From positions 1 to 33,154 of the IMG/VR virus record IMGVR_UViG_3300008117_000292: a DNA stretch of 33,154 bases. One strand, given 5' to 3'. The first letter of the stretch is position 1, and each line of letters opens with the position of its first letter. The notes under the pieces were generated by a model, which saw only the letters and a program-made list of their open reading frames with translations, had not been told where the DNA came from and searched no databases. Source of the DNA: a virus. The translations under genes and the position numbers were made by a program. Positions 1,624 through 32,793 of this stretch are shown piece by piece.

Positions 1624-2067
1624 TTAGTGTACTGGTCCTTTGTCTTTTTTTGCTAATGCTTCTAAAATTGATACAACGTTTTCTTGCATCTCTTCGACGT
1701 CTTCAACTTTTTTATTTTTAGATTTTTTCTTTTGTGGGTTCTTTAGGTTATGTGTGTTATTATAAAAGAAATCACTTACATACTCATACTGCTCATAAAA
1801 TTCTGGTCGAACTGGAGCAGCAAATAGTATATCAGACATAGGAATCTCAACTTCTCTCAGTTCAATAACTGATTGAGGTAAGTATTCTTGCATTGCAAGA
1901 ATTTGCCTACCTTCTTCAAAAAGAGTTTCAATCTCAATTCTAAGTGGCGTCTCAATAACTAAACACTCATCTTTATATGTCACATACCCAATTAAATCAT
2001 CTGGAAAATTTTTAAGGCGAACAAAACGAAGTTCGCCTCTATTATAAACTACTGGATCTTCTGACAT
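1624..2067 (-). CDS. conserved T4-type hypothetical protein, Sm-like N-terminus
   Basis: A 147-residue protein between uvsW and gene 55. Residues 13-29 (RFVRLKN...DDLIGYV) have the rhythm of an Sm/Lsm-type small barrel, V-x-L-K-N followed by a G-Y-V strand. The next segment, with IETPLRIEIETLFEEGRQ and MQEYLPQS, looks well conserved among aquatic T4-like phages at this locus. Residues 108-122 are strongly Lys-rich (PQKKKSKNKK), followed by an acidic helix. The start overlaps the uvsW stop (TAATG), indicating translational coupling. The function is unknown. The barrel resemblance and the basic tail would fit RNA or DNA contact, but this is inference from sequence pattern only. Confidence 0.8.
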   Translation of the reverse strand: MSEDPVVYNRGELRFVRLKNFPDDLIGYVTYKDECLVIETPLRIEIETLFEEGRQILAMQEYLPQSVIELREVEIPMSDILFAAPVRPEFYEQYEYVSDFFYNNTHNLKNPQKKKSKNKKVEDVEEMQENVVSILEALAKKDKGPVH

Positions 2068-3395
2068 TAATTTATCCTTACATTATTGGTTGTGAAAGGA
2101 AATTTTTCTTCACTATAGATTTTCACTCGTTCCTCATAGTGCTTCAATGTGAAATTTGTATAAGGACCATAACGCAAATCATCAGCGATATCATAAAGCG
2201 TGGCAGCATCTTTGTTCTCACCTAAACGCAGCACGCGACCAATGGATTGTAGAGAACGAATCTTACTCTTTGTTGGAGAAGAGAACACTATATTATGTAG
2301 GTTACGGATATTCACACCTGTTGAGAATGTGCCATAACTCGCTACAATGATCGCATCATTTTCCTGTTCAGTGATATGTCTCACTGCTTCGCGATCTTCT
2401 GCTTCAACCCCACCATGAATAAAGAATACTTTGCGATTACCACATCTCTCTTTAATCGATTCATATAGTATCTTACCGTGTTTTTCGACATAAGTAAATA
2501 AAATTAAACTATTGCCTTTGAGATTAATAGCAAGATCACATATAAAGTTATTTCTTCCTTCATGCTGAGTCAAAAAATTCATCTCGTCAGGATATGTAAA
2601 GCCTTTAATTGCCTTACATACAATCTCTGGATACTTTAACACAATACACTTGATGCTAAAATTAGCCAACTGCTTGCGTTCAATGAGTTCTTTTGTAGAG
2701 ATTACTTTAAACACTGGACCAAATAGACCCTCAAGAACCAATTTGTTTACTTTACTATCATCAAGTGTACCAGTTGTACCAATACGCACATCGCAGTTGA
2801 TAAGTTTGGTCATGATGCTTGTCAATGACTTGGCTTTAAACGTATGCGCTTCGTCGCCAATAATGAAATCAAACTGAGTAAAGTATTTCTTTGGCATGTC
2901 GTAGATACTCTGCCAAGTAGAGATAATCAAATCAGTATCTGGAATTTTACTTTCACCACCGAATATCTTTTGACAATACTTGTCTACATCCCAGCCATTG
3001 TTGCTGGAGTAGTTCTTAAAGTCAGAATGCATCTGAGTGACGAGGTTGATCGTAGGAACAATCAACAATCCGCGCTTCTTACCACTATTCAACAAGTGGC
3101 GAATCATCATGTAGATGATTAGCGATTTTCCACTCGCGGTAGGTGAAATGAGTACAGTTCTCTTCTTCGTAAGTCCAACGCTAGACGCGAGTAACTGATA
3201 ATCTCTTGGCTCCAATGGAAGGGAGAGAGCAGTCGCGAGATTCTTTGTGTCAATTGGGTGAACTTCTTTTTCTTCGTCGAGATAGCCTGGAGTTGAGAAT
3301 GTAAAGAACTCTGACATCTCTCGAATGATGCCATCATCGGCATGAACCTGAACATAGATGTTATTTACTTTTTCAACAACGACGTGTTCAATCAT
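2067..3395 (-). CDS. uvsW: UvsW RNA-DNA and DNA helicase, shortened N-terminal domain
   Basis: A superfamily 2 helicase of 442 residues. Walker A (SPTASGKS, residues 84-91) and the DEAH box (181-184) are intact. Later motifs (SGxL-type TGTLDD, VASYGTFSTGVNI, QSIGRVLRLG) match T4 UvsW closely. UvsW unwinds R-loops and branched DNA, shutting off origin-dependent replication and promoting recombination-dependent replication. The ATG at 3395 was chosen because it forms an ATGA overlap with uvsY and because IEHVVVEKV...VQV resembles the T4 N-terminus; an upstream ATG at 3482 would lie inside uvsY. T4 UvsW is about 500 residues. Here, only about 28 residues separate the FTFSTPGY segment from the PLEPRDYQ motif, so some 50-60 residues of the N-terminal domain seem absent, in frame. 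Confidence 0.93.
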   Translation of the reverse strand: MIEHVVVEKVNNIYVQVHADDGIIREMSEFFTFSTPGYLDEEKEVHPIDTKNLATALSLPLEPRDYQLLASSVGLTKKRTVLISPTASGKSLIIYMMIRHLLNSGKKRGLLIVPTINLVTQMHSDFKNYSSNNGWDVDKYCQKIFGGESKIPDTDLIISTWQSIYDMPKKYFTQFDFIIGDEAHTFKAKSLTSIMTKLINCDVRIGTTGTLDDSKVNKLVLEGLFGPVFKVISTKELIERKQLANFSIKCIVLKYPEIVCKAIKGFTYPDEMNFLTQHEGRNNFICDLAINLKGNSLILFTYVEKHGKILYESIKERCGNRKVFFIHGGVEAEDREAVRHITEQENDAIIVASYGTFSTGVNIRNLHNIVFSSPTKSKIRSLQSIGRVLRLGENKDAATLYDIADDLRYGPYTNFTLKHYEERVKIYSEEKFPFTTNNVRIN

Positions 3396-3841
3396 CGAGC
3401 ACCTTGAATAAACTTCTCCCAACCCATGTACTCTTTCAATTGCCACGTGCGGTTGTTTAACTCTTTCATGACATTGGTGCAAAAATTTGCAGCCTCTTCA
3501 TGATAGGCTTTCTTGCGCTTGAGTTTGTTTAAATCATCATCACCGTCAAGATAAACTTGCATATCTGATTTAAGAGTAAATCGAAATGGCTCCCAACCAA
3601 GTTTATCCAATTCTTCTTGATCTAACTTGCCACTGTAATACATCCACTTGAGTTTCTTTAATTTGTCGAACTCAAGTGCTGCGCGTTTGGCTGCAAGATT
3701 ATGCAGCGACAAGTATTTGTTATACTTGTTGTGAATCAATGGAATGCGCAAAATCTCTTTGCCAGGTTCCGTAGTATCAACTTCGGAATCTTTTTCCCAT
3801 TGCTGCATTAATTCTTCGAGTGGAGGTGTTTCTATTTTCAT
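3392..3841 (-). CDS. uvsY: UvsY recombination mediator
   Basis: A 149-residue protein matching T4 UvsY (137 residues). Shared features are an N-terminal LEEL...WEKDSEVDTT segment, the helix with KKLKWMYYSGKLDQEEL (T4 has a similar LDYYSGR), a short segment with VYLDGDDDL, and a C-terminal helical region. UvsY hexamers load UvsX recombinase onto gp32-coated single-stranded DNA. It is followed directly by uvsW with an ATGA overlap, the order seen in other T4-like phages. No Shine-Dalgarno sequence is visible before the ATG, and a sigma-70-like promoter ends only seven bases upstream, so a leaderless message is possible. The chosen start keeps the segment that aligns with the T4 N-terminus. Confidence 0.92.
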   Translation of the reverse strand: MKIETPPLEELMQQWEKDSEVDTTEPGKEILRIPLIHNKYNKYLSLHNLAAKRAALEFDKLKKLKWMYYSGKLDQEELDKLGWEPFRFTLKSDMQVYLDGDDDLNKLKRKKAYHEEAANFCTNVMKELNNRTWQLKEYMGWEKFIQGAR

Positions 3842-4795: not shown

Positions 4796-6036
4796 TTATT
4801 GATTGACGTTTAGGACCTTGAACTTTGTTGCGAAAGGATTTGCAACGAGACCATAACGGGTCTTGAAGCCAACCTTTGGCTGGTAGGTTGTTGGGTCGAT
4901 TGCGCGAACCATCTGGAGTGGGACGTATGGGCAGTAGAACAAGCCAGCGTCGTAAGCATTTGTACCCTTATAACCGACGACAACATAGTCAGCGCCAGCG
5001 ACAGAGTATGGGTCAACATAGACCTTCAAGCGTCCGAATAGCGTACCTGCGAAGGTATTGCCTGTATCGTCAACTGTTAGGTTTGTGTTGTTGCTTAGAG
5101 CAGAATTGTAGTCAAGAAGACCTGTCATTGCTAGGGCTGATGCAACGTCTGTTGAGACGATGATCAAGTTACCCTTGCCGCGACGTGTGTCCTTGGCAAT
5201 CTTGTTTGCTGCTTGCTCAATGCGGAACAATAGGCTCTTATACTTTTCAACCTGCCAACGACCGCTTGTACCACCAGCAGCATCTGTTAGGGTGCTTGAT
5301 GATAGGTTTACGACGTTTTGTGCGGCAGATGTGATACCTACGTTAGCTGTTGCATAGATCGTACGAACAACTTCGCGGTTGATTTCTGCAAGAATTTCAG
5401 TTGACAAAATATTTGTCAATTCTGTTTCTGCATCGAGACCGTGAATTGCCTTGAGATCTTGTCAGAAACGCGATCGATCTGGAAGCCCATGTACTTCATG
5501 GTTAGATCTTCTGCGGTTGTTGTTGCCATGCCTGTACCAGTATTGGCTAGACCGAACACTGCAGAATTTGCTTCAGCTGGGTTTAGTGAAGCTGATAGTG
5601 CATTGTGGTCGCCTGTACCAGAGTGTGCAGTATTGGCTTCTAGGAATAGAGCCTCACCGCCACGTGCTGATGAAGAAGCATATACTGAGCGCATTGCGAA
5701 GATTAGTCCTGTTGGACCAGTCATTGGCTGCACGCCGCAGAGATCATATGCCATTAGGTTTGGAAGAGCACGACGTACCAATCCGATTAGGATTGGGTCA
5801 AAACCTTTGATGCCGCCTTCTGAGCCGACAACTGGTGACATACCGCCGCCAACTGCGTTGGCTGGTGATGCTTCCCATAGGTTTGTCATTGTGCGTGATT
5901 CTTCAACTAGAGCACGCTCTTGATTTTCTAGAACTAGGGCAGTTACAGCGCGCTTGTATGGGTCGCTGATCTTTGGGAGTTCTGGGTGATCAAGAACTGG
6001 TGCCCACTTCTTTGCGTATGTTTCGTTTAAATACAT
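4796..6036 (-). pseudogene. 23: gp23 major capsid protein, reading frame broken
   Basis: Two adjoining frames together encode a T4-type major capsid protein, the hexamer subunit of the head. The first frame (6036 to a TGA at 5416) starts MYLNETYAKKWAPVLDHPEL, a typical gp23 start, with a GAGG ribosome site; it is recognisable through MGFQIDRVS (residue 191, base 5464). The second frame is recognisable from QDLKAIHGLDAETEL (base 5461), then TNILSTEILAEINREVV, to the stop at 4796. Only two bases separate these two points, but gp23 homologues carry about 17 conserved residues there (of the type AKTRALKAEYT). So roughly 49 bases appear missing, which also shifts the frame. Without that gap the protein would be about 429 residues. 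An essential gene should not be broken like this, so an assembly or sequencing error is likely, though real damage is possible. Confidence 0.9.
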
Positions 6037-6060
6037 AAGTGTTTACCTCAGTTCGTTAAA

Positions 6061-7245
6061 TTAGGCTTTTGGAGCCGTTTTAGTAATTGCTGCTACATAA
6101 TGTTTCATTAGACCGTGAACTTCTGCTACTTCTGGCTCTTCAACAGCTGTTTCTTGAATTGCCTTTACCTCACTCATCACTTTCTTTGCTGGGAAGTAGT
6201 TCTCGCGTAATACTGCGAGCTTATTATCAAACTCACCCTCTGTGGTGAACTCCACGCCCTCTGCGAGCGATTTCATTTTCTCAACCTGTACTTCGGTTAG
6301 ACCTTCACAGATTTTTCGAATTGCTTCGTTTTTCTTTGCAACGTTGAGTTCTTCAACAATTGCTGCTTTCTCTGCTGCGGCTGCTGTTGCTGCTTCTTCA
6401 AGAGCGGCAACACGCTGTGCAAGTTCTTCAGCAACATCGACTTTCTCTTCAGGAATTTCGATGTAGTGCTCAGAGAATAGGTTCTTGAGACCGCTGATGA
6501 AGTCATCAACGAGTTCTGCACGTAGACCTGTTTCGATTGCAACCTGATTGCTTTCAACCCATTGCTCGACGACATAGTTGAGGTACTCATCAACTTGCTC
6601 TGCAATTTCTGACTTGATTGTGTCAACTGCTTCAGCAAGAACTGTTTCGTTCTCTGTCATCATATCTTCTAGGATTGCGTCAACACGTGAGTTGACTGCT
6701 GCTTCGAAGATTGTTGTTGCTTTTGTCTTAAATTCTTCGGAGAGTGACTCGCCGTTGAAGAGAGCGTCGACGTCTTCAGCCATGGACTTGGCATGCTTTT
6801 TCTTCATGTCATTTTTCCATGCTTCTTTCATTTCCTTCTCATCTTCTTCGTCTTCATCATCTTCTTCTTCGTCATCTTCCATTTTTGCTTTTGCTTCAGC
6901 AACTACTTCTTCAGCAGCTGCTTCTTCAGTAGCAACTTCTTCTTCAGCAACAACTTCTTCAGCTGCTGGTTCTTCTGCTACTTCAGCAACGACTTCTGCA
7001 GTCTCATCGGCTTCTGTTTCTTCCATAGCCTGAGTCTTAACTGCCTTTGCGTCACCCTTTGTGGCTGGCTTTGCAGCAACAGATGCAGCGGCAGATGCTT
7101 TCTTACCGATATCTGATGGTGCAGTTGTTGGTGTTTGACCGCCGAGATCATCCATCTCTGCTGGTAGTTTTGATGCTGGTTCCTTTGCGGCTGACATTGA
7201 TGCCTTTAGGATTTCTGCAGCGGATTCTGATAATGTCTTACTCAT
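6061..7245 (-). CDS. 22: gp22 prohead scaffold (core) protein
   Basis: A 394-residue, helix-rich protein between the protease (gene 21) and capsid (gene 23), the T4 position of gp22. After an Ala-rich N-terminus, residues about 75-140 are extremely acidic, with runs of Glu and Asp (EDDEEEDDEDEEDEKEM). The second half is long coiled-coil helix (VDVAEELAQRVAALEE) and ends with segments typical of gp22, EGLTEVQVEKMKSLAEGVEF and LAVLRENYF. gp22 forms the inner scaffold of the prohead and is cut to small peptides by gp21 during maturation. T4 gp22 is 269 residues, so the acidic region makes this one longer. A CAGGAG ribosome site and a TATAAATA promoter lie just upstream. Confidence 0.93.
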   Translation of the reverse strand: MSKTLSESAAEILKASMSAAKEPASKLPAEMDDLGGQTPTTAPSDIGKKASAAASVAAKPATKGDAKAVKTQAMEETEADETAEVVAEVAEEPAAEEVVAEEEVATEEAAAEEVVAEAKAKMEDDEEEDDEDEEDEKEMKEAWKNDMKKKHAKSMAEDVDALFNGESLSEEFKTKATTIFEAAVNSRVDAILEDMMTENETVLAEAVDTIKSEIAEQVDEYLNYVVEQWVESNQVAIETGLRAELVDDFISGLKNLFSEHYIEIPEEKVDVAEELAQRVAALEEAATAAAAEKAAIVEELNVAKKNEAIRKICEGLTEVQVEKMKSLAEGVEFTTEGEFDNKLAVLRENYFPAKKVMSEVKAIQETAVEEPEVAEVHGLMKHYVAAITKTAPKA

Positions 7246-7272
7246 TTGTTTTAACTCCTGAAGAAGTAATAT

Positions 7273-7280
7273 TATTTATA
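7273..7280 (-). promoter_or_regulatory. late promoter TATAAATA, upstream of gene 22
   Basis: An exact match to the T4 late-promoter -10 element on the minus strand, in the 39-base gap between genes 21 and 22. It ends 27 bases before the gene 22 ATG and should supply extra transcription of scaffold and capsid. Confidence 0.85.
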
Positions 7281-7284
7281 AATT

Positions 7285-7929
7285 TTAAAGTTTTGACAAG
7301 AAATTTTCGAAGATTTTCAACGAAATTTCGTCAATTTGACGTTGCTTTGCATTCTTGATTTGATTATAATAAGCATTGACATCGATCTCTTTGACAACGC
7401 CATTATCCCAAACCCACTCTTTACCTTCCATAATACCTTGAACAAAAGCACCAGGTGCGGATGGATCCGCTACAATATCAGCCGCTGTGGCTAGATAATA
7501 GTCATCCTGAACCACATTGACACCATTCACTTCTTTAAGTGAACCCATGCCACGTGATGATACACCAAGAGTTGCGCCGCCTTCCATAAGGGACTTGGCG
7601 ATTTTACCCATTGGTGTTTCAAGAATTTTTGCCTTACCAATCCATTGGTTTCCTTCCTGTTTTAGATTGGTAATAAGATGCGATACGCGATCTAGGTTAA
7701 TTGATGGTGAATCAGGATGACCTAACTCGCCAAATGCGCGATTCTTAGAAACATATTCTTCGTTGTAACGATTGACTTCTTTTGCAAGAGTGTCAGTCTT
7801 ATACATACGACCGTTACGATTTTTCATTTCTGCAACGAGAAATGGACCTTGAATGTAAAGTGTCTTCACACCATTCTTTTCTTCGGTGATCATCTTTACT
7901 GATTCGATTGTTTCTGTGATTAGTTTCAT
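7285..7929 (-). CDS. 21: gp21 prohead maturation protease
   Basis: A 214-residue protein, the same length as T4 gp21. The expected catalytic elements are His71 in GELGHPD and the Ser pair 124-125 in LGVSSRGMGS, the herpesvirus-assemblin-like active site. VAEMKNRNGRMY near residue 32 is the typical N-terminal signature of this family. In the prohead core it cleaves scaffold (gp22), itself and the capsid N-terminus before DNA packaging. It starts one base after the previous gene's stop and is followed by the late promoter and gene 22, so its expression is coupled to the core genes. Confidence 0.95.
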   Translation of the reverse strand: MKLITETIESVKMITEEKNGVKTLYIQGPFLVAEMKNRNGRMYKTDTLAKEVNRYNEEYVSKNRAFGELGHPDSPSINLDRVSHLITNLKQEGNQWIGKAKILETPMGKIAKSLMEGGATLGVSSRGMGSLKEVNGVNVVQDDYYLATAADIVADPSAPGAFVQGIMEGKEWVWDNGVVKEIDVNAYYNQIKNAKQRQIDEISLKIFENFLSKL

Positions 7930-7930
7930 T

Positions 7931-8233
7931 TTATCTCAACCCCAGTGATGCGCGTTTTCTAAGTGAACGCTTTCTTTTAATAAGAGCGCGAGCCATCTTT
8001 GCTTTACGCTTAATTTTTGCACGTCGTGCTGCAAGTTTTCTTTTCATTCTTTCGCGCGGTGGAATGCGCACTAATTTACCACCACGAATAGTATAGCCAG
8101 GAACTGCTGATAGAACCTTGCGACGTTGGACTTTACCACCTCGTACACGCGCACGAACGAGTTTTTTACGACCCATGCGCTGCACGTTTGCTTCGGCGAT
8201 AATTTCTCTTACAATGTCAGAGACAAGACTCAT
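7931..8233 (-). CDS. small, very basic head-region protein
   Basis: A 100-residue protein of which roughly 40 percent is Arg or Lys, with almost no acidic residues after the first 15. The N-terminal helix (SLVSDIVREIIAEANV) is followed by KKLVRARVRGGKVQRRKVLS, a central VPGYTIRGGKLVRIPPRERM segment, and a C-terminal all-basic helix. The start overlaps the upstream gene as ATGA, and gene 21 follows after one base, so it belongs to the prohead-core operon. Proteins of this kind occur at this locus in other T4-like phages. I infer a DNA-binding or core-packing partner for the acidic scaffold; it could be a gp68 counterpart, but identity is not certain. Confidence 0.8.
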   Translation of the reverse strand: MSLVSDIVREIIAEANVQRMGRKKLVRARVRGGKVQRRKVLSAVPGYTIRGGKLVRIPPRERMKRKLAARRAKIKRKAKMARALIKRKRSLRKRASLGLR

Positions 8234-9321
8234 TTATCTCCTCCAATTTTAAATTGTACCTTACTTAATGCAAAGTGAGCCGCTTTTTCAAATCCTTTTG
8301 GAGTTGTGAGCATATCGGCAAACTTCTTTTTATTCTCATCATTCAATGCACCATGAACCATATGAATGGCTTTTGCTGCACCATGACTGACTTTAAGTTT
8401 TGAACCATCAGCAAACTTCATATGCTTTGCATGTGATGTAACGTTATCTTGTTGTGCATATGCTGCGACTTGTTCAAGACTTTCCATGACGTCACCAGAA
8501 ACTTCTACGCTATCGCCCATGTAACGACCTTGACCATATCCACGATCTGTTGGATCATACTCTGGTTGTTTTCTTGGTGGTGGATTTCTCTTTAGTAATT
8601 TTGCCTTTGCACGCGCTCTTCCAATACGAGTAAGGTTTGCGCGTTCAATGTCTTTTTGCCTTTCTTCTGGTTTGCCAACTGTTTCTTTACGAGCAATATC
8701 TCTAATTTTTGGAGATGGACGTTTCTCAAGATAACTCTTGAGTGTTTCATCTTTAAGTTCATTCACTGGCTCGACTTCTTCCATCTGTATGTTTGTGCCA
8801 GGAATAACTTCTCCTGGAGAGTTACCAGTGCCAGCATATGGGATTGTAATTACAAGACCGAGTTGCTTGTTATGATACATTGCAACTTTTTTGCCGTCAG
8901 GAAAAATGCGAATTCCTTTTCTTTGCAATACAATCATTACTGGCGGATTTTGTTCGTCTTTAAATCCAGCAATTGCTTCGGTGATTAATTCATCACCTTC
9001 AATCTCATTGTGCTGCATTAAATTTTTGCGCACTGCTTGAAATGCTTGTTGCGATCCAATAGCAGCACTTGAAGTTGCATCATAATATCTTGTCAAAACA
9101 TCGCGATGTTGTTTTGGCAATCTAGCAATATCACCAACTTCTGATTGGCGTCGCAATGCAATTTTCAAGCGTGGTAAATCGCTGGACTTCATTGCTCCAG
9201 AACGAACTAACGCAGAAATTCTTGCACTATCAAGTGCTGCTTGTTTCGTCTGCTGCGACTTCTGCTGATCCATCGCTGGATTCGCCTCCATCAACTTCGA
9301 CTTGATCTGTTTCAACTTCAT
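8230..9321 (-). CDS. prohead core-region protein, gp68-like N-terminal part
   Basis: A 363-residue protein between the gp67-like frame and gene 21. Residues about 30-100 (ARISALVRSGAMKSSDLPRL...PKQHRDVLTRYYDAT) follow a pattern common in phage head-core proteins at this locus. The middle holds a beta-rich segment (PPVMIVLQRKGIRIFPDGKK). Around residues 188-195 is ELKDETLKSYLEK, a short helix motif recurrent in phage virion proteins, followed by basic sequence. The first ATG at 9321 lies inside the gp67-like frame and has no good ribosome site. The ATG at 9273 has a GGAGG 11 bases upstream and may be the true start. Probably a minor head or core component; no enzymatic motif was found. Confidence 0.75.
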   Translation of the reverse strand: MKLKQIKSKLMEANPAMDQQKSQQTKQAALDSARISALVRSGAMKSSDLPRLKIALRRQSEVGDIARLPKQHRDVLTRYYDATSSAAIGSQQAFQAVRKNLMQHNEIEGDELITEAIAGFKDEQNPPVMIVLQRKGIRIFPDGKKVAMYHNKQLGLVITIPYAGTGNSPGEVIPGTNIQMEEVEPVNELKDETLKSYLEKRPSPKIRDIARKETVGKPEERQKDIERANLTRIGRARAKAKLLKRNPPPRKQPEYDPTDRGYGQGRYMGDSVEVSGDVMESLEQVAAYAQQDNVTSHAKHMKFADGSKLKVSHGAAKAIHMVHGALNDENKKKFADMLTTPKGFEKAAHFALSKVQFKIGGDK

Positions 9322-15518: not shown

Positions 15519-16219
15519 AAGCCATATGTTGATTTAGTTGCATTGTAATTTTGTAATATTTCAGAGGCAGTCAATGTTCTATTATAGATGAACACTTGAC
15601 TTAAATCCCCATAATACTGATAACTTCCACCAGAATACGCGCTCAATCCAAACCAAACTTCTTGCGAATTTGTGATAGAAGATAAGGTTGTGTTTGTATT
15701 GTTTACTTCAATTCCATTTACATATAATCGTAACTTAGATGCATCTCTTGTAAACATAACATAATACCAAGATCCATCATTATAAGTGTTCAATTGACTA
15801 GAAATAGAATTACTTGATCCACCTGATTTTGCAATATCACCAATAATTAACCCACCATTCATCCATATGCGATAATTCCATGGCCAACCTGCAGCAGTTT
15901 CTTTTGAGATAATCATCTTAATGCCAGCAGAACTAGTGCAGAACCATGCACCAACAGAAAAATCTTCTGATGCTAAACTTTGATTAGTATCAATGTAATC
16001 AGTAAAATCAAATGTGAAGTGTGTGCTATTAAATGTTGGTGAGCCTTGTAATGTTGTTGCATATCCATTTGGACTCAAATCTGTCCAAGTTGTTCCAGAA
16101 CCAGGATAACTTGTAGAATCAGCAGCATTGAGATAAAGTTGAAGATTAGTGCGCACAATATCAAGCACACCAACTTTTCTTCTACCAAATTTAAATGAAC
16201 CGCTAAATGAACCCAACAT
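15515..16219 (-). CDS. LamG-like lectin-domain adhesin
   Basis: A 234-residue protein. Residues 1-17 (MLGSFSGSFKFGRRKVG) resemble the N-terminus of the next upstream gene and probably serve as an attachment peptide. The rest reads as a laminin-G/concanavalin A-like jelly roll: LQLYLNAADSTSYPGSGTTW, WTDLSPNGY, DFSVGAWF, SWYYVMFTRDASKLRLYVNG and GDLSQVFIYNRTLTASEI, the standard order of LamG strands. Such domains usually bind sugars, so a host-surface or particle-decoration role is likely. There is no signal peptide. It is sandwiched between the PA14-like gene and gene 16 without gaps. Confidence 0.85.
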   Translation of the reverse strand: MLGSFSGSFKFGRRKVGVLDIVRTNLQLYLNAADSTSYPGSGTTWTDLSPNGYATTLQGSPTFNSTHFTFDFTDYIDTNQSLASEDFSVGAWFCTSSAGIKMIISKETAAGWPWNYRIWMNGGLIIGDIAKSGGSSNSISSQLNTYNDGSWYYVMFTRDASKLRLYVNGIEVNNTNTTLSSITNSQEVWFGLSAYSGGSYQYYGDLSQVFIYNRTLTASEILQNYNATKSTYGL

Positions 16220-16750
16220 TTAAATACCCATTGTAGCTGGATTGTAGAAAGTTTTTCCAGTTGTATCTGTTGTTTTGCTTATAGTTGCTGTGGAGAAACT
16301 AAACGTACACACATCACCACCACCTCTTTCACCAAATTGAACTCGAATTGGATAATATACACCAGCACTCAATGCAATGCTTCCACTCATTTCAACAACA
16401 CCATGCAACCCACCATTATTTACGGTTGCATTTCCTGTTGTAAATCCAGAAATAGCATTTGCGCCAATCCACATATATGACGCATCATCGCTACTCAAAT
16501 AAAATGTATATGTTTCACTTGTTGTTGGTCTAAAATATCCCAACCATTGATAACTGAAATCACTTCCATCATCACTTCCTGGTTCAGATATTGAACCAAC
16601 TTGAATTGTAGTAGAAGATACTGTTTGCGAGGCGAACCATGAAACGTCGTCAGCAAAATAGCCGCCGTTATATCTTCTTGCTACAACTCCAGCAAGGTAG
16701 GAAATCCCTTTCCTACCAAATGCTCTGGACCCACTGAATGAACTAAACAT
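16220..16750 (-). CDS. PA14-like domain adhesin
   Basis: A 176-residue protein when started at the ATG at 16750, which forms a TAATG overlap with the preceding fibre gene. The alternative ATG at 16786 lies inside that gene. It begins [15 protein letters not shown], close to the neighbour's MLGSFSGSFKFGRRK. The body resembles a PA14/GLEYA beta-barrel: FSYQWLGYFRPTTSETYTFY, LSSDDASYMWIG and AGVYYPIRVQFGERGGG, where the DD pair in SSDDAS is the usual metal/sugar-binding position of carbohydrate-binding PA14 domains. Probably a virion-attached glycan binder; the target is unknown. Confidence 0.83.
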   Translation of the reverse strand: MFSSFSGSRAFGRKGISYLAGVVARRYNGGYFADDVSWFASQTVSSTTIQVGSISEPGSDDGSDFSYQWLGYFRPTTSETYTFYLSSDDASYMWIGANAISGFTTGNATVNNGGLHGVVEMSGSIALSAGVYYPIRVQFGERGGGDVCTFSFSTATISKTTDTTGKTFYNPATMGI

Positions 16751-19695
16751 TATCCGAACGTCGTCAATTGACCAAGTGTTATCCACGTTCCATTATTGTT
16801 CACAACACTGAAGGAAACAACATCCTTCTTGTTGGCTGAACCAGCTGGTTGCGTACCACCCTGCCAATTTACAGTTTGTGCTTGACCACCAATTTGAACC
16901 GCAGTTGGAACATATGCTGTTGCACCTTGATTCAACACTAGCGTGAACGATGTTGCATTATTTGCAGGAATCGTTGTGTTAGTGAAGTTGGCAGTAAAGT
17001 TTGCAGTAATGCTTGAGTGAACAAAAATTTGTCCAAGCGAACAGTCATGCGTAACAGTACCAGTTGCAGCAGACAATGCATTGGTTGCCTCAATTACATT
17101 TTTGACATTCAATACATTTGTTGACACGCTAGTGAAGACTACAGGATCAGCAATGTTTAGTGATTGGTCATAAGTGCTTGGACCCTGTGGACCCTGTGGA
17201 CCTTGAGGACCCTGTGGACCAACTACGCCTTGTGGACCTTGCGGACCAACTACACCTTGTGGACCTTGTGGACCTGCAACTCCTTGAGGACCTTGTGGAC
17301 CCTGCGGACCTTGTGGACCACCAGAAGGACCAGAAGGACCAGATGGACCTGTTGGACCAGCCTCACCCTTATCACCAGTACGAGCAAATGTAATCAAGAC
17401 ATCTTCAGAGGCACTGAATGCTGCAGCACTACCAGAAACATAAGAGCAGTTCACTTCGAAGTAACCTGTCTTATCTGTTAGACTGTTTACAACAAACAAT
17501 GCAAAGTCGCTTGGATCAGACTTATTGCTGATCTTGAAGTGACCCTTAATGGTTGATGTTGAGTCATCAATTGTTGCCAAGAAGTTGAAGATATTTGTAC
17601 CGCTATCGTCAAGATAGTCAATCCACAATTTATTTGCAGCAGTGACAGTGCCATTGTTCAACTTCAATTTGCCTTGTCCTGGATCACTATCAGTAGTGTT
17701 AGAATCAAAGGTAAAGTCAAACGTTGCGCCACCAAAGCCACCAGTTGCACCAGTTGGTCCTTGTGGACCCTGTGGTCCTTGTGGACCTGTGTCACCAGTT
17801 ACGCCTTGTGGACCTTGAGGACCTGTGTCACCAGTTACGCCTTGAGGACCTTGAGGACCTTGTGGTCCTTGTGGACCCTGCGGACCTTGCGGACCAACAA
17901 CACCTTGAGGACCTTCTGGACCTTGTGGTCCTTGTGGACCCTGCGGACCGACAACACCCTGTGGACCTTGTGGACCCTCTGGACCTTGCGGACCTTGTGG
18001 ACCTTGTGGACCAACAGCACCTGTATCGCCTTTATCGCCAGTGCGAGCAAAAGTGATTACAATATCTTCAGCATCACTGAAACTGCTTGCGCTGCCTGAA
18101 ACATAAGCACAATCAACTTCGAAGTATCCAGTGCGATCTGTCAATCCACTAATTGTGAAGAGAGCAAAATCAGCTGAATTTGATTTATTGCTAATACGGA
18201 AGTGACCCTTAATCGTTGATGTTGAGTCATCGATGGTCGTCAAGAAGTTTTGAATTTGTGTTCCGTTGTCATCCAAATAATCAATCCACATCTTATTTGC
18301 AGATGTGATTGTTGTATTATTCAAACGCAACTTACCAGTGCCTGGATCACCCTGGAAGTCATTTGCACTAAACGTATAGTCAAATGTTGCACCACCAAAG
18401 TTACCTGTTGCACCAGTTGGACCTTGTGGTCCTTGCGGTCCTTGTGGACCAACAACACCTTGAGGACCCTGTGGACCTTGTGGACCCACATCGCCAGTCA
18501 CGCCCTGTGGTCCTTGCGGACCTTGTGGTCCTTGCGGACCCTGTGGACCAACAACACCTTGAGGACCTTCTGGACCTTGTGGTCCTTGCGGTCCTTGTGG
18601 ACCTTGTGGACCCTGTGGACCAACTACGCCTTGCGGACCTTGAGGACCTTCTGGACCTTGTGGTCCTTGTGGACCTGTTGGACCGCCTGATGGTCCTGTT
18701 GGACCTTGTGGACCAGTTAAACCAGTCTCACCTTTATCACCAGTACGAGCAAAAGTGATGAGAATATCTTCACCATTACTAAATGATGCAGCACTACCAG
18801 AAACAAAAGCACAATCAACTTCAAAGTATGAAGTTTTGTCAGTTAAATTACTGATTGTGAACATAGCAAAGTCAGCAGAGTTTGCTTTATTTGTTACGCG
18901 GAAGTGACCTTTGATCAATGATGTTGAATCATCAATTGTTGCAAGGAAATTTTGAATGTCTGTGCCGCTTTGATCAACATAGTCAATCCAAAGTTTAGTA
19001 GCAAGAGTTACTGAACTGTCATTAAGTTTTAATGAACTATTGCCTGGATCGCTATCTGTGGTATTTGTTTGGAAATTATACTCAAACGTTGCACCACCAA
19101 AGCCGCCTTGTGCGCCAGTTGGACCTTCAGGACCTTGCGGTCCTTGTGGACCCTGTGGACCAACGACACCTTGTGGACCTTGTGGACCTTCTGGTCCTTG
19201 TGGACCTTCTGGACCTTGTGGACCAACGACACCTTGTGGACCTTGTGGACCTTCTGGTCCTTGTGGACCTTGAGGACCAAATACACCTTGTGGACCTTCT
19301 GGTCCTTGTGGACCTTGAGGACCTTGTGGACCAACATCGCCTTGAGGACCTTGCGGACCGATAACACCTTGAGGACCTTCTGGTCCTTGTGGACCTTGTG
19401 GACCTTGTGGACCTGGAACATTTGATACGCCAGATGGACCTTGAGGACCTTCAGGACCTTGCGGACCTTCAGGACCTTGCGGACCAACTACGCCTTGTGG
19501 ACCTTGAGGACCTTCTGGACCAGATGGACCAACAAGACCGCCATATGGTAATATGTTCCATGCTGTTGTGCCATCGCCGACTTTGAATTGACTTGTGTCA
19601 GTTTCAAGACCGAGCTCGCCTAGCGCAAGAACTGAGTTCGCAGTTGACCACTGTGATGCAGTACCGCGACGAAATTGAAGTTGAATATATGCCAT
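16750..19695 (-). CDS. collagen-like fibre protein, 981 residues
   Basis: Residues 1-53 ([10 protein letters not shown]...[20 protein letters not shown]...LPYGG) form the short N-terminal module found on many phage fibre proteins, often named after the Mtd N-terminus. Then come long Gly-Pro-Gln/Glu triplet tracts that predict collagen triple helix. These are broken by three copies of a 124-residue globular domain (from residues 199, 433 and 654). The C-terminal 140 residues form a non-collagen head ending [14 protein letters not shown]...[18 protein letters not shown], a trimer-tip type domain. It probably forms a long trimeric fibre. A CTAAATA motif lies 34 bases upstream and a GGAGG lies 12 bases before the ATG. 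The repeated DNA makes this region prone to assembly error. Confidence 0.9.
17365..17736 (-). repeat. fibre repeat domain, copy 3 of the 981-residue protein
   Basis: Codes for 124 residues, [10 protein letters not shown] to ARTGDKG, with the invariant core [12 protein letters not shown]. It sits between two collagen tracts. Confidence 0.9.
18028..18399 (-). repeat. fibre repeat domain, copy 2 of the 981-residue protein
   Basis: Codes for 124 residues, [10 protein letters not shown] to ARTGDKG. It is very similar to the copies on either side in length and in the [12 protein letters not shown] and [12 protein letters not shown] segments. Confidence 0.9.
18730..19101 (-). repeat. fibre repeat domain, copy 1 of the 981-residue protein
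   Basis: Codes for 124 residues, [10 protein letters not shown] to ARTGDKG. It is the first globular break after the longest collagen tract of this protein. Confidence 0.9.
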
Positions 19696-19696
19696 G

Positions 19697-20800
19697 TTAG
19701 GAAACGCCTCCGCAATTAATATTTAGTCCTACGCTAAAATCTGTATCTGGTTCACCACCGTCATAAACTACAACACCAGCAAGAGTTGGTCCAGTTGGAC
19801 CAGCAACACCAGATGGTCCTTGTGGTCCTTGTGGACCTGTATTACCAGTCGCACCTTGTGGACCTTGCGGACCAACATCACCATTGACACCAGATGGTCC
19901 TTGTGGTCCTTGTGGACCAACATCACCAGTTACACCTTGTGGACCTTGCGGACCAGCATTACCATTAACGCCAGCAGGTCCTTGTGGACCCTGTGGACCT
20001 GTGTTGCCATTCGATCCTGCTGGTCCTTGTGGACCCTGTGGACCAGCAACATTTGATGCTTCGCCTTGTGGACCAGATGGACCTGATGGACCAGTTGGAC
20101 CAGTTGGTCCTTGCGGACCTGTATCACCAAGATCGCCAGTTCTTGCAAAAGTAATTAAAACATCATCATTGTTATTGAATGATGTTACACCACCAGAAAC
20201 ATATGAGCAATTTACGATTGAATAAATGCCAGGATGAGATGCAGATGAAATTGTAAACAATGCAAAGGCTTCTACGTTTGCCTTTAAACTTACTTTGAAG
20301 TGACCTTTAATTGTTGACGTTGAATCATCAATTGTTGTTAATAGATTAGTAATGTCAACTGCAGAATCATCAGCTTCGTCAATGTAAAGTTGAGTAGCAA
20401 GAGTTAAGTTGTTATTATTAAACTTTAAACGACCAGTGCCTGGATCAGTGTTGCCTGTATTTGAGTCGAATGTATAATCAACTGTAATGCCACCAAAAGA
20501 TCCTGCAGGACCAACTGGACCAACAGGACCTTGTGGACCTGCTACACCCTGCGCACCTTGTGGACCTTGCGGACCTTGCGGTCCAGTGTCACCGTTTGAA
20601 CCCGCAGGACCTTGAGGACCTTGTGGACCTGCAGAACCTGCTGCGCCTTGTGGACCTTGTGGACCTTGTGGACCACTATCAGCTCCAGCGCCAGCATACA
20701 GTTCAGTGAAGTTATCATTTACTTTATCAAATGCTTCACGAATTGTATCGCCAGTACCATCATTTGGTGCCGATCCAATATCGATTACTTGTTGTGTCAT
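19697..20800 (-). CDS. collagen-like fibre protein, 367 residues
   Basis: Residues 1-38 ([20 protein letters not shown]...NDNFTELY) are a common N-terminal attachment module of phage fibre and neck-associated proteins. It differs from the N-terminus of the larger fibres. A collagen tract (44-100), one copy of the 124-residue repeat domain (102-225, with GDLG instead of GDKG at its end) and a second collagen tract rich in GPSGVNGD-type triplets follow. The last 30 residues ([12 protein letters not shown]...NINCGGVS) match the C-terminal motif of the 640-residue fibre. It lies between gene 15 and the larger fibre gene, whose ATG comes one base after its stop, so the two are probably co-expressed. 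Confidence 0.88.
19730..19736 (-). promoter_or_regulatory. late-promoter-like CTAAATA before the 981-residue fibre
   Basis: Minus-strand ACTAAATA lies within the last codons of the 367-residue fibre gene and ends 34 bases before the next ATG. It has the same flanking A as the sites at genes 13 and 18. Confidence 0.5.
20126..20497 (-). repeat. fibre repeat domain, single copy in the 367-residue protein
   Basis: Codes for 124 residues, [10 protein letters not shown] to ARTGDLG. It is more diverged in the middle ([12 protein letters not shown] in place of the SGLTD-type segment) but keeps [15 protein letters not shown]. Confidence 0.88.
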
Positions 20801-20811
20801 TTCTTATTCTC

Positions 20812-21882
20812 TTAAAAATTATCGTCAGCTGTCTTAGAACCAGTATCAACTCTAATGAGAGTAGAGTCAACTCTATCATCAAAGAAGTATGGTGTTTCTT
20901 GCAATACTTCTGTAAATCCAAATGCGCTGTCTGCATTCGCATTCATTGGGTCTGGATATATTACCTGCCTTGTGAGCTGATAATTTGGTGTTGTAAAACT
21001 TTGTATATTCCACGATGCATTTGATACTGCGCCTGTTATATATCTGCCAGTTAGAAGAACTCCATTTGTATCTGCAACAATCATCGTATTTGTTGTTTGA
21101 TTCCATGAGCGCACAAATGCAGTTGAATTGGCTTCACTTAAAGTTCTACCCTCATAGACCAATTCTCCAATTTTAAATACTCCACTTCCAGTGCTAAACA
21201 CAATTTCTTTTTGCGCTGTTGTGTTATATGTTGTGTCATATGTATTAGCTGTTGATTTGCGAATGATCTTAGACTCAGTTGTTGCGCCGTACATGTATCC
21301 TTTTGCAGTAAATGTTAACGTCCAAATAATTATACGAACATTGTCAGAACTTACACCAACATTTTCTAGATCTTGTGATACTGAATTAAGTACAAATGGA
21401 ACATCAACTTTTTCTGATGGAATATCAACTAAATTGAGAGTCATAGTATAATCAGGTGAAAAGTAAGGAAGAATTTGCTCAACAATCTGAGTGCCGTCTT
21501 CAACATTTCGAACATATATGGAGAGTGTGAAGTCAAAGTTATATGGTGACGCAACAACATTTTTTACTTTAGTATTATCATCACCAACTGCAAAACTATT
21601 TACGAAGTTACTTCTTTTTCGAAGTGGATCATAGGTTATAGCTGTCATCTCAAAACTCATTCTTGGCAACGTCATCATTGTTTCATTTGCCAAGTTTGGA
21701 TCTTGAGTGATACGCTCAAAGAATTTCTCTTTTTGAGCATACATTAACGGCACATTAATTCTTTCTATCTCTTGTGTTCCTGCTTTGTTGTATCTTTTTA
21801 ATGTGATATTGTTGAACATTGTTCCAAATGCAACAACCATTTTGCGAGTGATTCGATGATAGAAATGCACATTTGATAACAT
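20812..21882 (-). CDS. 15: gp15 tail completion / sheath terminator protein
   Basis: A 356-residue protein after genes 13 and 14. The N-terminus (NVHFYHRITRKMVVAFGTMF...ITLKRYN) and the following PLMYAQKEKFFERI, TLPRMSFEMTAITYDPLRKR and VEQILPYFSPDYTMTLN all parallel T4 gp15, in which a Y-A-x-K-E-x-F segment, LPRIN and VEQILPYFQP occur in the same order. gp15 caps the tail sheath and joins the tail to the head. T4 gp15 is 272 residues; the extra length here lies in the C-terminal 100 residues (KIGELVYEGRTLSEANST onwards), which look like a separate beta-rich extension. Its start overlaps the gene 14 stop by one base. Confidence 0.93.
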   Translation of the reverse strand: MLSNVHFYHRITRKMVVAFGTMFNNITLKRYNKAGTQEIERINVPLMYAQKEKFFERITQDPNLANETMMTLPRMSFEMTAITYDPLRKRSNFVNSFAVGDDNTKVKNVVASPYNFDFTLSIYVRNVEDGTQIVEQILPYFSPDYTMTLNLVDIPSEKVDVPFVLNSVSQDLENVGVSSDNVRIIIWTLTFTAKGYMYGATTESKIIRKSTANTYDTTYNTTAQKEIVFSTGSGVFKIGELVYEGRTLSEANSTAFVRSWNQTTNTMIVADTNGVLLTGRYITGAVSNASWNIQSFTTPNYQLTRQVIYPDPMNANADSAFGFTEVLQETPYFFDDRVDSTLIRVDTGSKTADDNF

Positions 21883-22763
21883 TATGGTTCACCAAATGGA
21901 TTGCTTTCACTAAAGTCAAGAATATTGTCTGCTTCTTGTTCAATAATAAAGTTGTCATCAAGTTTGTTACCAACTGCATCTTTGATCGGATCTGCTTCTG
22001 CTGTCACAGTCCAAATTGCACCACTTGATTTACCCTTTATCTGTATACCATCGGCAAAAACACCAAAGATATTTTTGAGTTTAAGTTTACGTTCTGGCTT
22101 ATTCCAATTTGCAATCAGCCCCTTTGCAGTCGCTGTTGCAAACGATGCGCCCTGATAAACCCATTCTTGATCAACAAATGTTCCAGAACCGCCAGAGTCG
22201 AGCGTATACTCTAGAATCATCGCTTGTATATCTGAAATATTATCAATTTCACTGACGCCTGTTTCAAACAACTCGCCATTATACTTAAACGCTTCCATTG
22301 TCAACCCAAACATATATGGCGCAATCTTACCTGCTTGGAAGAAGTTCTTTTCTTCTTCTACGCCTTTGATTTCCATTATTTTCTTTTGAGTTGGGAGATA
22401 AACTAAATCACCTTCTTTTGGTAGATTATGTGTTATTGGATATTGTCGTGTTACAAGTCTTTCAAATGTTCGACGAGCAACAGCCATGCGCGCAACCTTT
22501 TGTATTTCTAAACCAAACTTACTGAAGAACTCAGAATTGCCTTCGAAGTCTTGAAAAGATTCCATGTACATGTCAACTTTAATTGCACTACGATAGCACT
22601 TCACTGGATCATCGCCAAATAGTTCATCTGTCGATGAGCGAGACTCTCGCGGAAGATAATAAACATCGATTCCGTGATTTCGAATTGATTCGATAATCAA
22701 GTCTTCAATCAGCTGTTGTTCAACTGATGCTTTTTGATTGTTAAAGTATACGCTGGTTGGCAT
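21882..22763 (-). CDS. 14: gp14 neck protein
   Basis: A 293-residue protein. The segment EQQLIEDLIIESIRNHGIDVYYLPRESRSSTDELFGDDP parallels T4 gp14, which has a similar L-x-A-E-S-I-x-x-x-G-x-x-x-Y-Y-x-P-R-E stretch. EFFSKFGLEIQ later in the protein also matches. gp13 and gp14 form the neck rings that seal the packaged head and receive the tail. It sits one base after gene 13's stop and shares one base with gene 15's start, so the three neck genes form a tight translational unit. Confidence 0.93.
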   Translation of the reverse strand: MPTSVYFNNQKASVEQQLIEDLIIESIRNHGIDVYYLPRESRSSTDELFGDDPVKCYRSAIKVDMYMESFQDFEGNSEFFSKFGLEIQKVARMAVARRTFERLVTRQYPITHNLPKEGDLVYLPTQKKIMEIKGVEEEKNFFQAGKIAPYMFGLTMEAFKYNGELFETGVSEIDNISDIQAMILEYTLDSGGSGTFVDQEWVYQGASFATATAKGLIANWNKPERKLKLKNIFGVFADGIQIKGKSSGAIWTVTAEADPIKDAVGNKLDDNFIIEQEADNILDFSESNPFGEP

Positions 22764-22764
22764 T

Positions 22765-23523
22765 TTATCCTACGATAAAGGCAGTTGGTTCTTCATAGGT
22801 ATCACGAAGTTTTTCTTCGAGCATTGCAACTTCTGTTGTGGCTTCATCGTAAATTTGCTGAGCATTGATGACGAGTCCACCAGGAAGCGTATAGTTACCA
22901 TACTTCTTCAGATTCGTTCCCCATTGCTGCTTAAAGAGTGCAGCTGTATAGTCACGAACCCAAAGATCTCCATACACTCCAGAATGAACTTGAGGGTCTA
23001 CGATTCGATGACACTCAAATGCAATATATGCATTATCTTTATACTTGTTCCAATCCATAAACACTTTCAGTTGATGAACTTGTTTATTGAAAGTAAATGG
23101 AGGAAGTCCCGTTACGATCATATCAAGCATCGCTAGATGTTCGCGAGCAATTACATAGTAGGTGTATGAAGAGGCTGTTAGATTATAGAAATCGTTTAAG
23201 CGAAGTTGGTAATTAATATCGAACATGTTAAATCCAGTCGAAGATGTTGATGACTGGATTGAACCTGTGAATGGAAATACTTGGGATATGCCGACGATAG
23301 AATCAGCAAGAGTAATATAGGTGTTTGAGATGTCACCTGCAGTTACCTGATGCGCTAGATAGCAACGCTCAGTTCCGTCATAGTGATACGTGCGATACAT
23401 GTAAAGAGCATCATCGATGCGATCTTCGAGCTGATCTTCATCGACATTGATATCAATTACTGGAAAACCGAGTTTTCTAAGACAATAATCCTTGAGTTCG
23501 GTACGAGATGAGGGATGCGCCAT
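22765..23523 (-). CDS. 13: gp13 neck (head completion) protein
   Basis: A 252-residue protein. Its N-terminus RTELKDYCLRKLGFPVIDIN followed by VDEDQLEDRIDDALYMYRTYH is the family signature; T4 gp13 has nearly the same wording. The C-terminus contains QQWGTNLKKYGNYTLPGGLV, also typical. It forms the first neck ring on the portal after DNA filling. The ATG at 23523 has a GAGG ribosome site about eight bases upstream and a CTAAATA late-promoter motif 23 bases upstream, so the neck operon begins here, separate from the accessory glycosyltransferase cluster. Confidence 0.95.
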   Translation of the reverse strand: MAHPSSRTELKDYCLRKLGFPVIDINVDEDQLEDRIDDALYMYRTYHYDGTERCYLAHQVTAGDISNTYITLADSIVGISQVFPFTGSIQSSTSSTGFNMFDINYQLRLNDFYNLTASSYTYYVIAREHLAMLDMIVTGLPPFTFNKQVHQLKVFMDWNKYKDNAYIAFECHRIVDPQVHSGVYGDLWVRDYTAALFKQQWGTNLKKYGNYTLPGGLVINAQQIYDEATTEVAMLEEKLRDTYEEPTAFIVG

Positions 23524-23546
23524 GGAGAACCTCGCTAATTATTGTA

Positions 23547-23553
23547 TATTTAG
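23547..23553 (-). promoter_or_regulatory. late-promoter-like CTAAATA in a hairpin loop, gene 13
   Basis: Minus-strand ACTAAATA ends 23 bases before the gene 13 ATG, in the short gap after the GT-A gene. It lies in the 15-base loop of a TTATTG/CAATAA inverted repeat (23539-23544 with 23560-23565). Confidence 0.6.
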
Positions 23554-23554
23554 T

Positions 23555-24301
23555 TTATGCAATAAGTCTCCCGTCTCTAGAACTATAGACTTTATCAGGA
23601 TGCATATGCGCAAATTGCTCCCAATTTGGCTCTCCAGGAAGAATTCGACGACCTGTTGACTCTTCGCCGATGTGTTCTATAATATTTTTCCCTTCTGAAT
23701 TTTTTAAAATCGCTGAATACATCTGCTCGAAATGAGCCAAGTACACCATAATCATACCTTCGTTAATCGTAAATCCCCAGTATTCTCGAAAAGGATAATT
23801 GATAATACTTCGACGATAGAACGAAAAGATAATCGGAAACTGTTTTGTATTCTTAGCGTAATAGTATTGCTTGATTGGCGTATCTGATTCTTCAATCTTT
23901 GGGGGATGTTCGTGAAAGTACCATTCTTGTCTTTGCAGTACAACAGAAGCCATTTTAGGATCAGATTCTAAAATTTCGATCATATCATCTAGACGAATAG
24001 GTTCTTTTAGAATGACATCGTCTTCTTGATGTATGATATAGTCATAATCTACTGTCTTGAGATAATCGAAAAACTCGGACCACGTGACCGAAAGCCCCAT
24101 GTTTTCTTTATGCAAAAAGGTATTAAATTGATGAGTCTTTCCGAGCAGATCGAAAATATAATCATTTCGAGTTCTTGGATAGTCGTCGATTATAAGGCGA
24201 TCGACTTGATGCCCGCAATAGTCTAATAGATGTAAAGACTCGAGCGTTTTCGTCAAATACTGAAGACGATTACACGAAAATATTACATGAAGAATTTTCA
24301 T
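23555..24301 (-). CDS. GT-A fold glycosyltransferase (family 2-like)
   Basis: A 248-residue protein with the layout of a small GT-A enzyme: MKILHVIFSCNRLQYLTKTL at the N-terminus, VDRLIIDDYPR at residues 33-43, HKENMGLSVTW at 64-74, and the metal/nucleotide-sugar-binding HQEDDVIL at 91-98 with the acidic Glu93-Asp94-Asp95. The second half has GFTINEGMIMVYLAH and GRRILPGEPNWEQF. There are no membrane segments, so it would act in the host cytoplasm. Its ATG shares one base with the stop of the oxygenase-like gene, indicating coupling. The acceptor is unknown: candidates are virion proteins, DNA or cell-surface sugars. Confidence 0.85.
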   Translation of the reverse strand: MKILHVIFSCNRLQYLTKTLESLHLLDYCGHQVDRLIIDDYPRTRNDYIFDLLGKTHQFNTFLHKENMGLSVTWSEFFDYLKTVDYDYIIHQEDDVILKEPIRLDDMIEILESDPKMASVVLQRQEWYFHEHPPKIEESDTPIKQYYYAKNTKQFPIIFSFYRRSIINYPFREYWGFTINEGMIMVYLAHFEQMYSAILKNSEGKNIIEHIGEESTGRRILPGEPNWEQFAHMHPDKVYSSRDGRLIA

Positions 24302-24849
24302 CAGTATTCAGTATTAAAGAAGAATGTCTGGAATAAGCGACCGCTATGCAACGTACTTCCGAAATAATCGAGCGAAGCATGAAACATATTTCCGCGATAT
24401 AGAACGAGGCGATTGTACTTGTTTGCGATATAATCAGTCATTTCCCATTTGGTGTAGTCATAGCCTTCGTAATCTTTATCCGAGCGTTCATATTGACCAG
24501 TGGCTTTATGGCGATAAAGTGCAGTTCCAGAAGAAAGCGGAGCATCGGGAGTGAGATAACAAACACCAGCCCATGTATTGAATTGATCTGCATGAATCCA
24601 GGTGCGATCCTGAGCTGTGCAAATTTGAAATGCTCCAGTGTATCCAGAGTCTTCAAACCAATGAGTGACCTTTCCTCCAGCATATTCTATAATATTTCCA
24701 ATAATTGTTTTTGTATCTTCTGTTAAAAATGGCACTGTTCTCAGTCCAGGGTAGTTGCCTGAGACTTCGAATTTTTGCGATAGTGCAAATTCTCTAACTG
24801 TATCTGGATTACTATAGAAATCGTCGATGATAATCGTCTTTACTTTCAT
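24301..24849 (-). CDS. 2OG-Fe(II) oxygenase-like protein (DUF6445-type)
   Basis: A 182-residue protein beginning MKVKTIIIDDFYSNPDTVRE, with GNYPGLRT, then the metal site TWIHADQFNTWAGVCYLTPD giving His86-x-Asp88. GTALYRH, NRLVLYRGNMFHAS (possible distal His157) and GRLFQTFFFN (Arg171 as possible 2-oxoglutarate contact) follow. This order matches a phage- and marine-bacteria-associated family of jelly-roll oxygenase-like proteins. Members would hydroxylate a protein or small molecule; no substrate is known. It is flanked on both sides by glycosyltransferase-like genes and lies close to the collagen-like fibre genes. A GAGG ribosome site lies eight bases before the ATG. Confidence 0.8.
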   Translation of the reverse strand: MKVKTIIIDDFYSNPDTVREFALSQKFEVSGNYPGLRTVPFLTEDTKTIIGNIIEYAGGKVTHWFEDSGYTGAFQICTAQDRTWIHADQFNTWAGVCYLTPDAPLSSGTALYRHKATGQYERSDKDYEGYDYTKWEMTDYIANKYNRLVLYRGNMFHASLDYFGSTLHSGRLFQTFFFNTEY

Positions 24850-24859
24850 GATTATATCC

Positions 24860-25612
24860 TCAATAGTACATAAATCGACCAGAAGTTCCGTCCCATCCAG
24901 AAACCTTCCAATCTACTTCAATGATCTTATCTTCAAATGCTCTTGTAAAATAATATGATAATGTTTCAATATCATAATGATTCATTGCTGGTTGTTTTAG
25001 TAGATGAATCGTTGCTTCATTTATATCTATAAACTTCTCTAAATGATCCGAGCCGAATCCATATAGCACCGTACAGTACTGATGCAGTCTATTATTATTT
25101 TGCTGCTGTCTTCGATCAACAAAACTGTATCGCCAAGCGTCGTTCCACTCAAAGTTCAATGGCTTTTTAAAGAATATTTTATCTTTATTTTCTTGCGTTA
25201 ACAACTTATCATTAAAATCAAAATAGAAATATCGACCAGTTGCCTTGAATACAAAATCGTATTCTTTAATAATTGGTTTGTGAATCTTGAAATATGTATT
25301 TAATAACAATGATTCACAAAGACTTTTATTGGGATGAGTATTTACAATTTCAAATGCATCTTCGCATAACTCTTTTAATGGAACAAAGTCCACATTCTTC
25401 ATATGCCAGAATGTTTGTATGTACTCCATATAATCGTTAGACGAATCAACAATTACAATCTTGGCTTCTGGGAATGCTGCAGTAATTGAATTGATTGTAA
25501 AGATTGTTTGACGAAATCTTTCGTCAGCTGCAAATGTAGAACGAGTTGGGCTGTATGTAAAACGCCCTTCTCTTGGTTGAATAGATGAACCGACTACAAA
25601 TAGATTACGCAT
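24860..25612 (-). CDS. putative glycosyltransferase-like protein
   Basis: A 250-residue protein. The N-terminal segment STFAADERFRQTIFTINSI followed by PEAKIVIVDSSND looks like a GT-A nucleotide-binding half. DFVFKATGRYFYFDF near residue 120 resembles the K-x-x-G-R-Y motif of WavE-like and related transferases. The C-terminus (HYDIETLSYYFTRAFEDKII ... VSGWDGTSGRFMYY) looks characteristic of a family I associate with aquatic phages and algal viruses. There is no clear DxD motif and no membrane segment. It overlaps the end of the GT-B gene by eight bases, so it is in the same operon. The enzymatic assignment is inference. Confidence 0.6.
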   Translation of the reverse strand: MRNLFVVGSSIQPREGRFTYSPTRSTFAADERFRQTIFTINSITAAFPEAKIVIVDSSNDYMEYIQTFWHMKNVDFVPLKELCEDAFEIVNTHPNKSLCESLLLNTYFKIHKPIIKEYDFVFKATGRYFYFDFNDKLLTQENKDKIFFKKPLNFEWNDAWRYSFVDRRQQQNNNRLHQYCTVLYGFGSDHLEKFIDINEATIHLLKQPAMNHYDIETLSYYFTRAFEDKIIEVDWKVSGWDGTSGRFMYY

Positions 25613-26600: not shown

Positions 26601-26629
26601 AACAAACTCACTGATAAAATAATCTATAC

Positions 26630-26636
26630 TATTTAG
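26630..26636 (-). promoter_or_regulatory. late-promoter-like CTAAATA before the glycosyltransferase cluster
   Basis: Minus-strand GCTAAATA overlaps the TAA stop of the 1280-residue fibre gene and ends 29 bases before the GT-B ATG. The same stop-codon overlap is seen at genes 18/19. Confidence 0.5.
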
Positions 26637-32398: not shown

Positions 32399-32399
32399 G

Positions 32400-32735
32400 T
32401 TACTTTGTTACCTGAGGCAGTACCGTGATAATTCCTTCAATGATGCGTGTCGTTACATTAGCAGCATCTTTCTGTTTTACATCAAAAAGGTATCTACCTG
32501 CCTTGATATTTGCTGAAGTTGCAGAATTCATTGTCAGTAGAACGTTTCCACCAACAGAGTTAGCAATTGTAACAACTAGATTTGCTGTTACATTTGAGGA
32601 ATAATATGATTTTCGAATGGATGAAGAGAACGCAAAGCCAGTCACGTTAAGTGGGCTTCCATCGTCTTGCGTTAGGTCTAGATTATAGGAGAGATCTGTG
32701 CCTTGATCGAGATCTAATTCTACAAATTGCGCCAT
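32400..32735 (-). CDS. small Ig-like/BppU-type structural protein
   Basis: A 111-residue protein with the pattern of a widespread phage beta-sandwich: [39 protein letters not shown], then [20 protein letters not shown] and FDVKQKD followed by a closing [13 protein letters not shown]. This resembles the N-terminal domain of baseplate upper proteins and small fibre-linked proteins found beside collagen-like genes in other phages. It is probably an adaptor or a minor fibre component. It is driven by a clear TATAAATA late promoter 24 bases upstream and is followed, after one base, by the 640-residue fibre gene. Confidence 0.7.
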
Positions 32736-32738
32736 TTA

Positions 32739-32781
32739 GGATTCCCCGTTTTATTTTCTTATTTATAAACCTGGGGAATCC
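32739..32781 (-). repeat. 9-bp perfect inverted repeat around a late promoter
   Basis: GGATTCCCC (32739-32747) and GGGGAATCC (32773-32781) are perfect inverted copies with a 25-base spacer that contains TATAAATA. There is no T tract after either arm, so it does not look like a terminator. Confidence 0.8.
32760..32767 (-). promoter_or_regulatory. late promoter TATAAATA, start of the fibre operon
   Basis: An exact T4-type late -10 element on the minus strand, 24 bases before the ATG of the small structural protein at 32735. It lies in the only intergenic gap of this region and probably drives the fibre genes. Confidence 0.85.
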
Positions 32782-32793
32782 GCTTTAAAAAGT

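Follow-up and report, generated by a model that had tools for sequence, protein, structure and literature searches.

Whether the major capsid gene, gp23, is truly interrupted is the question raised by this locus, since the window (the whole 33154-base stretch analyzed, an IMG/VR virus record) carries it as two open reading frames (ORFs). The window covers part of a T4-like phage genome, the main genes of which run on the minus strand here, and the phage is probably a lake phage, going by IMG numbering. The gene order 21, 22, 23 is that of T4, with Pfam matches to PF03420 and PF25623 preceding gp23. The features of the region are as follows, in order of position.

2067..3482, minus strand, ORF of the uvsW helicase gene
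3284..3285, minus strand, third join, within uvsW, where 138 bases (46 codons) are absent, in frame
4796..5462, minus strand, C-terminal part of gp23, in a frame that differs from that of the N-terminal part; PF07068 positions 174-355
4825..4826, minus strand, second gp23 join, where 48 bases (16 codons, GAGTGALADDTNYYYR) are absent, in frame; microhomology 0 bases
5416..6036, minus strand, N-terminal part of gp23 (major capsid protein); PF07068 positions 2-119
5462..5463, minus strand, first gp23 join, blunt, lacking 49 bases (17 codons minus 2 bases); microhomology 0 bases
6061..7245, minus strand, gene 22-like prohead scaffolding protein, intact; T4_CASP PF25623; 100% identical in contigs L003, L004, and L061
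7285..7929, minus strand, gene 21-like prohead protease, intact; Peptidase_S77 PF03420; 100% identical in L061

As written, the window copy lacks a single uninterrupted gp23 frame. An earlier note made from the sequence alone placed the end of the recognizable N-terminal frame (...YMGFQIDRVS) at base 5464 and the start of the C-terminal frame (QDLKAIHGLD) at 5461, with bases 5463 and 5462 between them, and this reading was confirmed on the minus strand. True gp23 coding sense stops at 5463, and the remainder down to 5416 is out-of-frame read-through; the two long ORFs overlap by four bases (5416-5419). Both halves match the Gp23 family PF07068; the N-terminal half stops at profile position 119-124, and the C-terminal half begins at 159-174.

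Near-identical contigs (up to 100%) were found by scanning IMG/VR with the N-terminal half of gp23. Three of them, L003 (IMG dataset 3300031784), L005 (3300027127), and L061 (3300008267), come from other metagenomes and show 98-100% identity on both flanks of the 5463/5462 join. In alignments to the near-identical contigs, these three and L004 carry 49 extra bases at this point, and a sequence pattern spanning the absent stretch is present in the closest relatives. The earlier note had put the loss at about 49 bases and the missing residues at about 17; the loss proved to be exactly 49 bases, and the L003 sequence restores exactly 17 residues; together with the two junction bases, the absent bases encode VTAKSRGLQAAYTLELA. 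L003 differs from window positions 7821-699 by one mismatch over 7.1 kb, plus three stretches that are absent from the window. Its gp23 is one open frame of 445 amino acids that scores 434 bits against PF07068 over positions 2-376 of 376. The N-terminal part of the window gene is 100% identical to L003 residues 1-191, and the C-terminal part equals residues 209-445, except for 16 residues absent at 4826/4825. Of 80 relatives of gp23, those that no contig end cuts have a single open frame, about 435-474 codons long. The one exception is L061, in which an 89-base loss of its own interrupts the gene at a different site; at the point of the window's break, L061 is continuous. No relative (0 of 80) shares the short form, which was one half of the test that the earlier note had set. 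The gp23 of the lineage is an ordinary one.

Two further losses, both in frame, had been overlooked in the earlier reading. The 48 bases absent at 4826/4825 correspond to 16 residues near the gp23 C terminus, and the 138 bases absent at 3285/3284 lie in uvsW, where four bases, TATC, are common to both sides of the join; both stretches are present in L003, L005, and L061, these two junctions having been compared with the fetched relatives only. The best UvsW relatives among the matches listed all have 46 residues more than the window protein, and UvsW_N (PF21241) has a Pfam match in the L003 protein and none in the window protein. All three losses of the window fall within 2.2 kb.

Elsewhere, the parts of the window that are covered by near-identical relatives are complete. 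Positions 5463-9094 are colinear with L003, L004, and L061, barring losses private to those contigs, and positions 15925-33154 are colinear, with one mismatch, with L209/L215 (3300027816). A near-identical relative was not found for 9.1-15.9 kb, where the listed genes align over their full length to homologues with small gaps only and where a short in-frame loss is possible. The ORF at 8230-9321 (363 amino acids) has no Pfam match, and most relatives lack anything corresponding to some 70-90 of its central residues; this segment looks like natural length variation, because L004 has the same form as the window. The long ORFs of 981, 367, 1280, and 640 amino acids in the region 16750-32398 partly match one another, and the 1280-residue ORF holds collagen-like DGPQGPQG motifs; these ORFs probably encode tail-fibre or other structural proteins. 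Long tblastn spans here (1382 bases for 356 amino acids and 5625 bases for 1280 amino acids) take in matches to adjoining related genes, and as large deletions of the window they were ruled out by the colinearity with L209/L215.

The fetched contigs were also compared with each other for losses, a stretch being testable where it had a near-identical partner elsewhere. Single losses were found in L004 (213 bases), L061 (89 bases), L163 (80 bases), L170 (187 bases), L172 (70 bases), and L074 (226 bases), together with five in L165/L216 (173, 76, 89, 49, and 215 bases) and three in L171/L233 (260, 91, and 264 bases). An exact-match check gave 50 instead of 260 for one loss, probably owing to an anchor made ambiguous by a repeat, and could not place the loss in L172. 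All of these contigs come from IMG datasets 3300008108-3300008459, in which 14 distinct losses occur in 78 kb tested; they measure 49-264 bases, have an overlap of 0-2 bases, and do not favour lengths that are multiples of three. Loss-bearing contigs make up 8 of the 10 testable ones in this series (78 kb) versus 2 of 110 elsewhere (937 kb), with a Fisher p of ~2e-9 for a series that was defined after seeing the data. The two loss-bearing contigs outside the series look different, with 4 shared bases in one and 2 unmatched bases at the join of the other. The window, with 3 losses in 25.6 kb tested, behaves like the series and presumably comes from it. Contig L165/L216 (IMGVR_UViG_3300008113_003306) has five near-blunt losses within 13.8 kb that are identical in all other respects to the window and L209/L214, and at these losses the window and contigs of 3300027816 and 3300031787 agree on the longer form; it is a strong example of what would be a dataset-wide artefact.

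The absence of these bases relative to near-identical contigs is a plain observation, and we infer that the loss arose in assembly and not in the DNA. At a probability of roughly 0.93, the three losses of the window would be an artefact of assembly or scaffolding, an error in the data with no biological meaning, and jointly with this the phage population would have a normal gp23 of 445 residues and a uvsW that is likewise normal. Assembly error is favoured because three losses lie close together in an otherwise intact contig with 0-4 bases of microhomology, and because no other contig has the 5463/5462 junction, whose 27-base sequence has no exact match in IMG/VR (in a search that may omit the record of the window itself). 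The missing sequence, in turn, is present in near-identical independent contigs. The losses are contig-private, mostly blunt, frame-indifferent, and tied to a dataset series, and therefore an assembly procedure is indicated. Against this stand the four shared bases at the uvsW join, which a real deletion could leave too. Pieces flanking three short unresolved stretches would have been joined end to end, with 49, 48, and 138 bases dropped. As for the program step, our guess is that a scaffold gap was closed with nothing or that gap characters were removed later. Gap stripping is indistinguishable from gapless joining here, because runs of at least two N are lacking in all 278 sequences, in which single N only occur, in two loci. 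A search for papers naming the affected IMG datasets found none that bear on them; a paper on Great Lakes Microcystis (PMC5647855) used IDBA-UD to assemble isolates, and no link between that work and the contigs here was found.

The earlier note had left the cause between an assembly error, a mixed population, and a defective genome, and that range of causes is supported, with the evidence favouring the first. A defective genome, with gp23 and uvsW partly deleted, that survives alongside helper phage or makes up a minority in the sample would account for losses that are, after all, present in the sequence as given, and for the lack of further damage where identical relatives cover the window. 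It is nevertheless very improbable. Three separate deletions would have had to fall within this short region, with blunt joins in two cases and no more than 4 bases of homology in any; the gp23 junction is in no second contig of IMG/VR; and the same class of loss recurs at unrelated sites in one dataset series, including further contigs of the same phage. If the short forms were real, complementation would have to maintain defective genomes in which essential genes for the head and a helicase carry several small, blunt deletions, through a process shared by other phages of the same datasets, which we likewise hold to be very improbable. Even less credible is a genuine short or two-piece gp23, made by programmed frameshifting or as two proteins. 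The overlap of the two long ORFs in the window as written is what such a gene would present, but the 17 absent residues are beyond the reach of frameshifting, as the earlier note had argued, and L003 has them in one frame; of the 80 relatives, all without a contig-end cut, L061 included, are continuous at this point. A programmed frameshift or split gene was accordingly rejected, as relatives with identity of up to 100% on the two flanks have one frame and the additional residues.

A mixed population bears on the trigger of the error, and as a sub-type of assembly error its likelihood is contained in that of the main reading and does not add to it. Strains would fork in gp23, the assembler would misjoin the arms, and the bases at the fork would be dropped. 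Over the 2413 bases that end at the 5463 join, L004 and the window are 100% identical; L004 then departs after four bases of the missing stretch. This suggests that two strains separate here and that the contig was broken by a fork of the assembly graph. In addition, two of the three missing stretches of the window are almost wholly common to other strains (1.00 and 0.98 in shared 25-mers). Over the 14 losses, however, shared 25-mers are not enriched (observed 0.48, expected 0.51), and a strain fork is accordingly not supported as the general cause of the losses. We regard a strain fork as a possible but rather doubtful trigger in the window. Past the gp23 join, around its position 3419, L004 diverges clearly from the window, which may reflect real recombination within gp23 or else a change of strain during assembly.

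The preferred reading, an assembly artefact, calls for neither a new form of the gene nor a new mechanism. As biology, the interruption has no consequence, the phage having an ordinary gp23. For data hygiene, it has a minor one: the affected IMG/VR series holds silent losses of 49-264 bases that are unmarked by any N. Such losses create false split genes, and where they are in frame, as in uvsW, they create false domain losses that gene callers do not flag.

Among known systems, the gene belongs with T4-like gp23 (PF07068), and shares about 55% identity with the nearest isolates, Pelagibacter phage HTVC008M and marine Synechococcus phages; in this analysis, metagenome contigs are the only source for the lineage. 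Like other T4-like gp23 genes, the intact L003 gene covers PF07068 and stands beside genes for a T4_CASP scaffold and an S77 protease, and it is only the window copy that differs, by the absence of 49 and 48 bases. The joins themselves resemble misjoins in short-read metagenomes in being blunt and contig-private, in losing tens to hundreds of bases, and in being concentrated in contigs of one dataset series. Assembly misjoins are usually described as chimeras or collapsed repeats, whereas here unique coding sequence has been dropped without any N.
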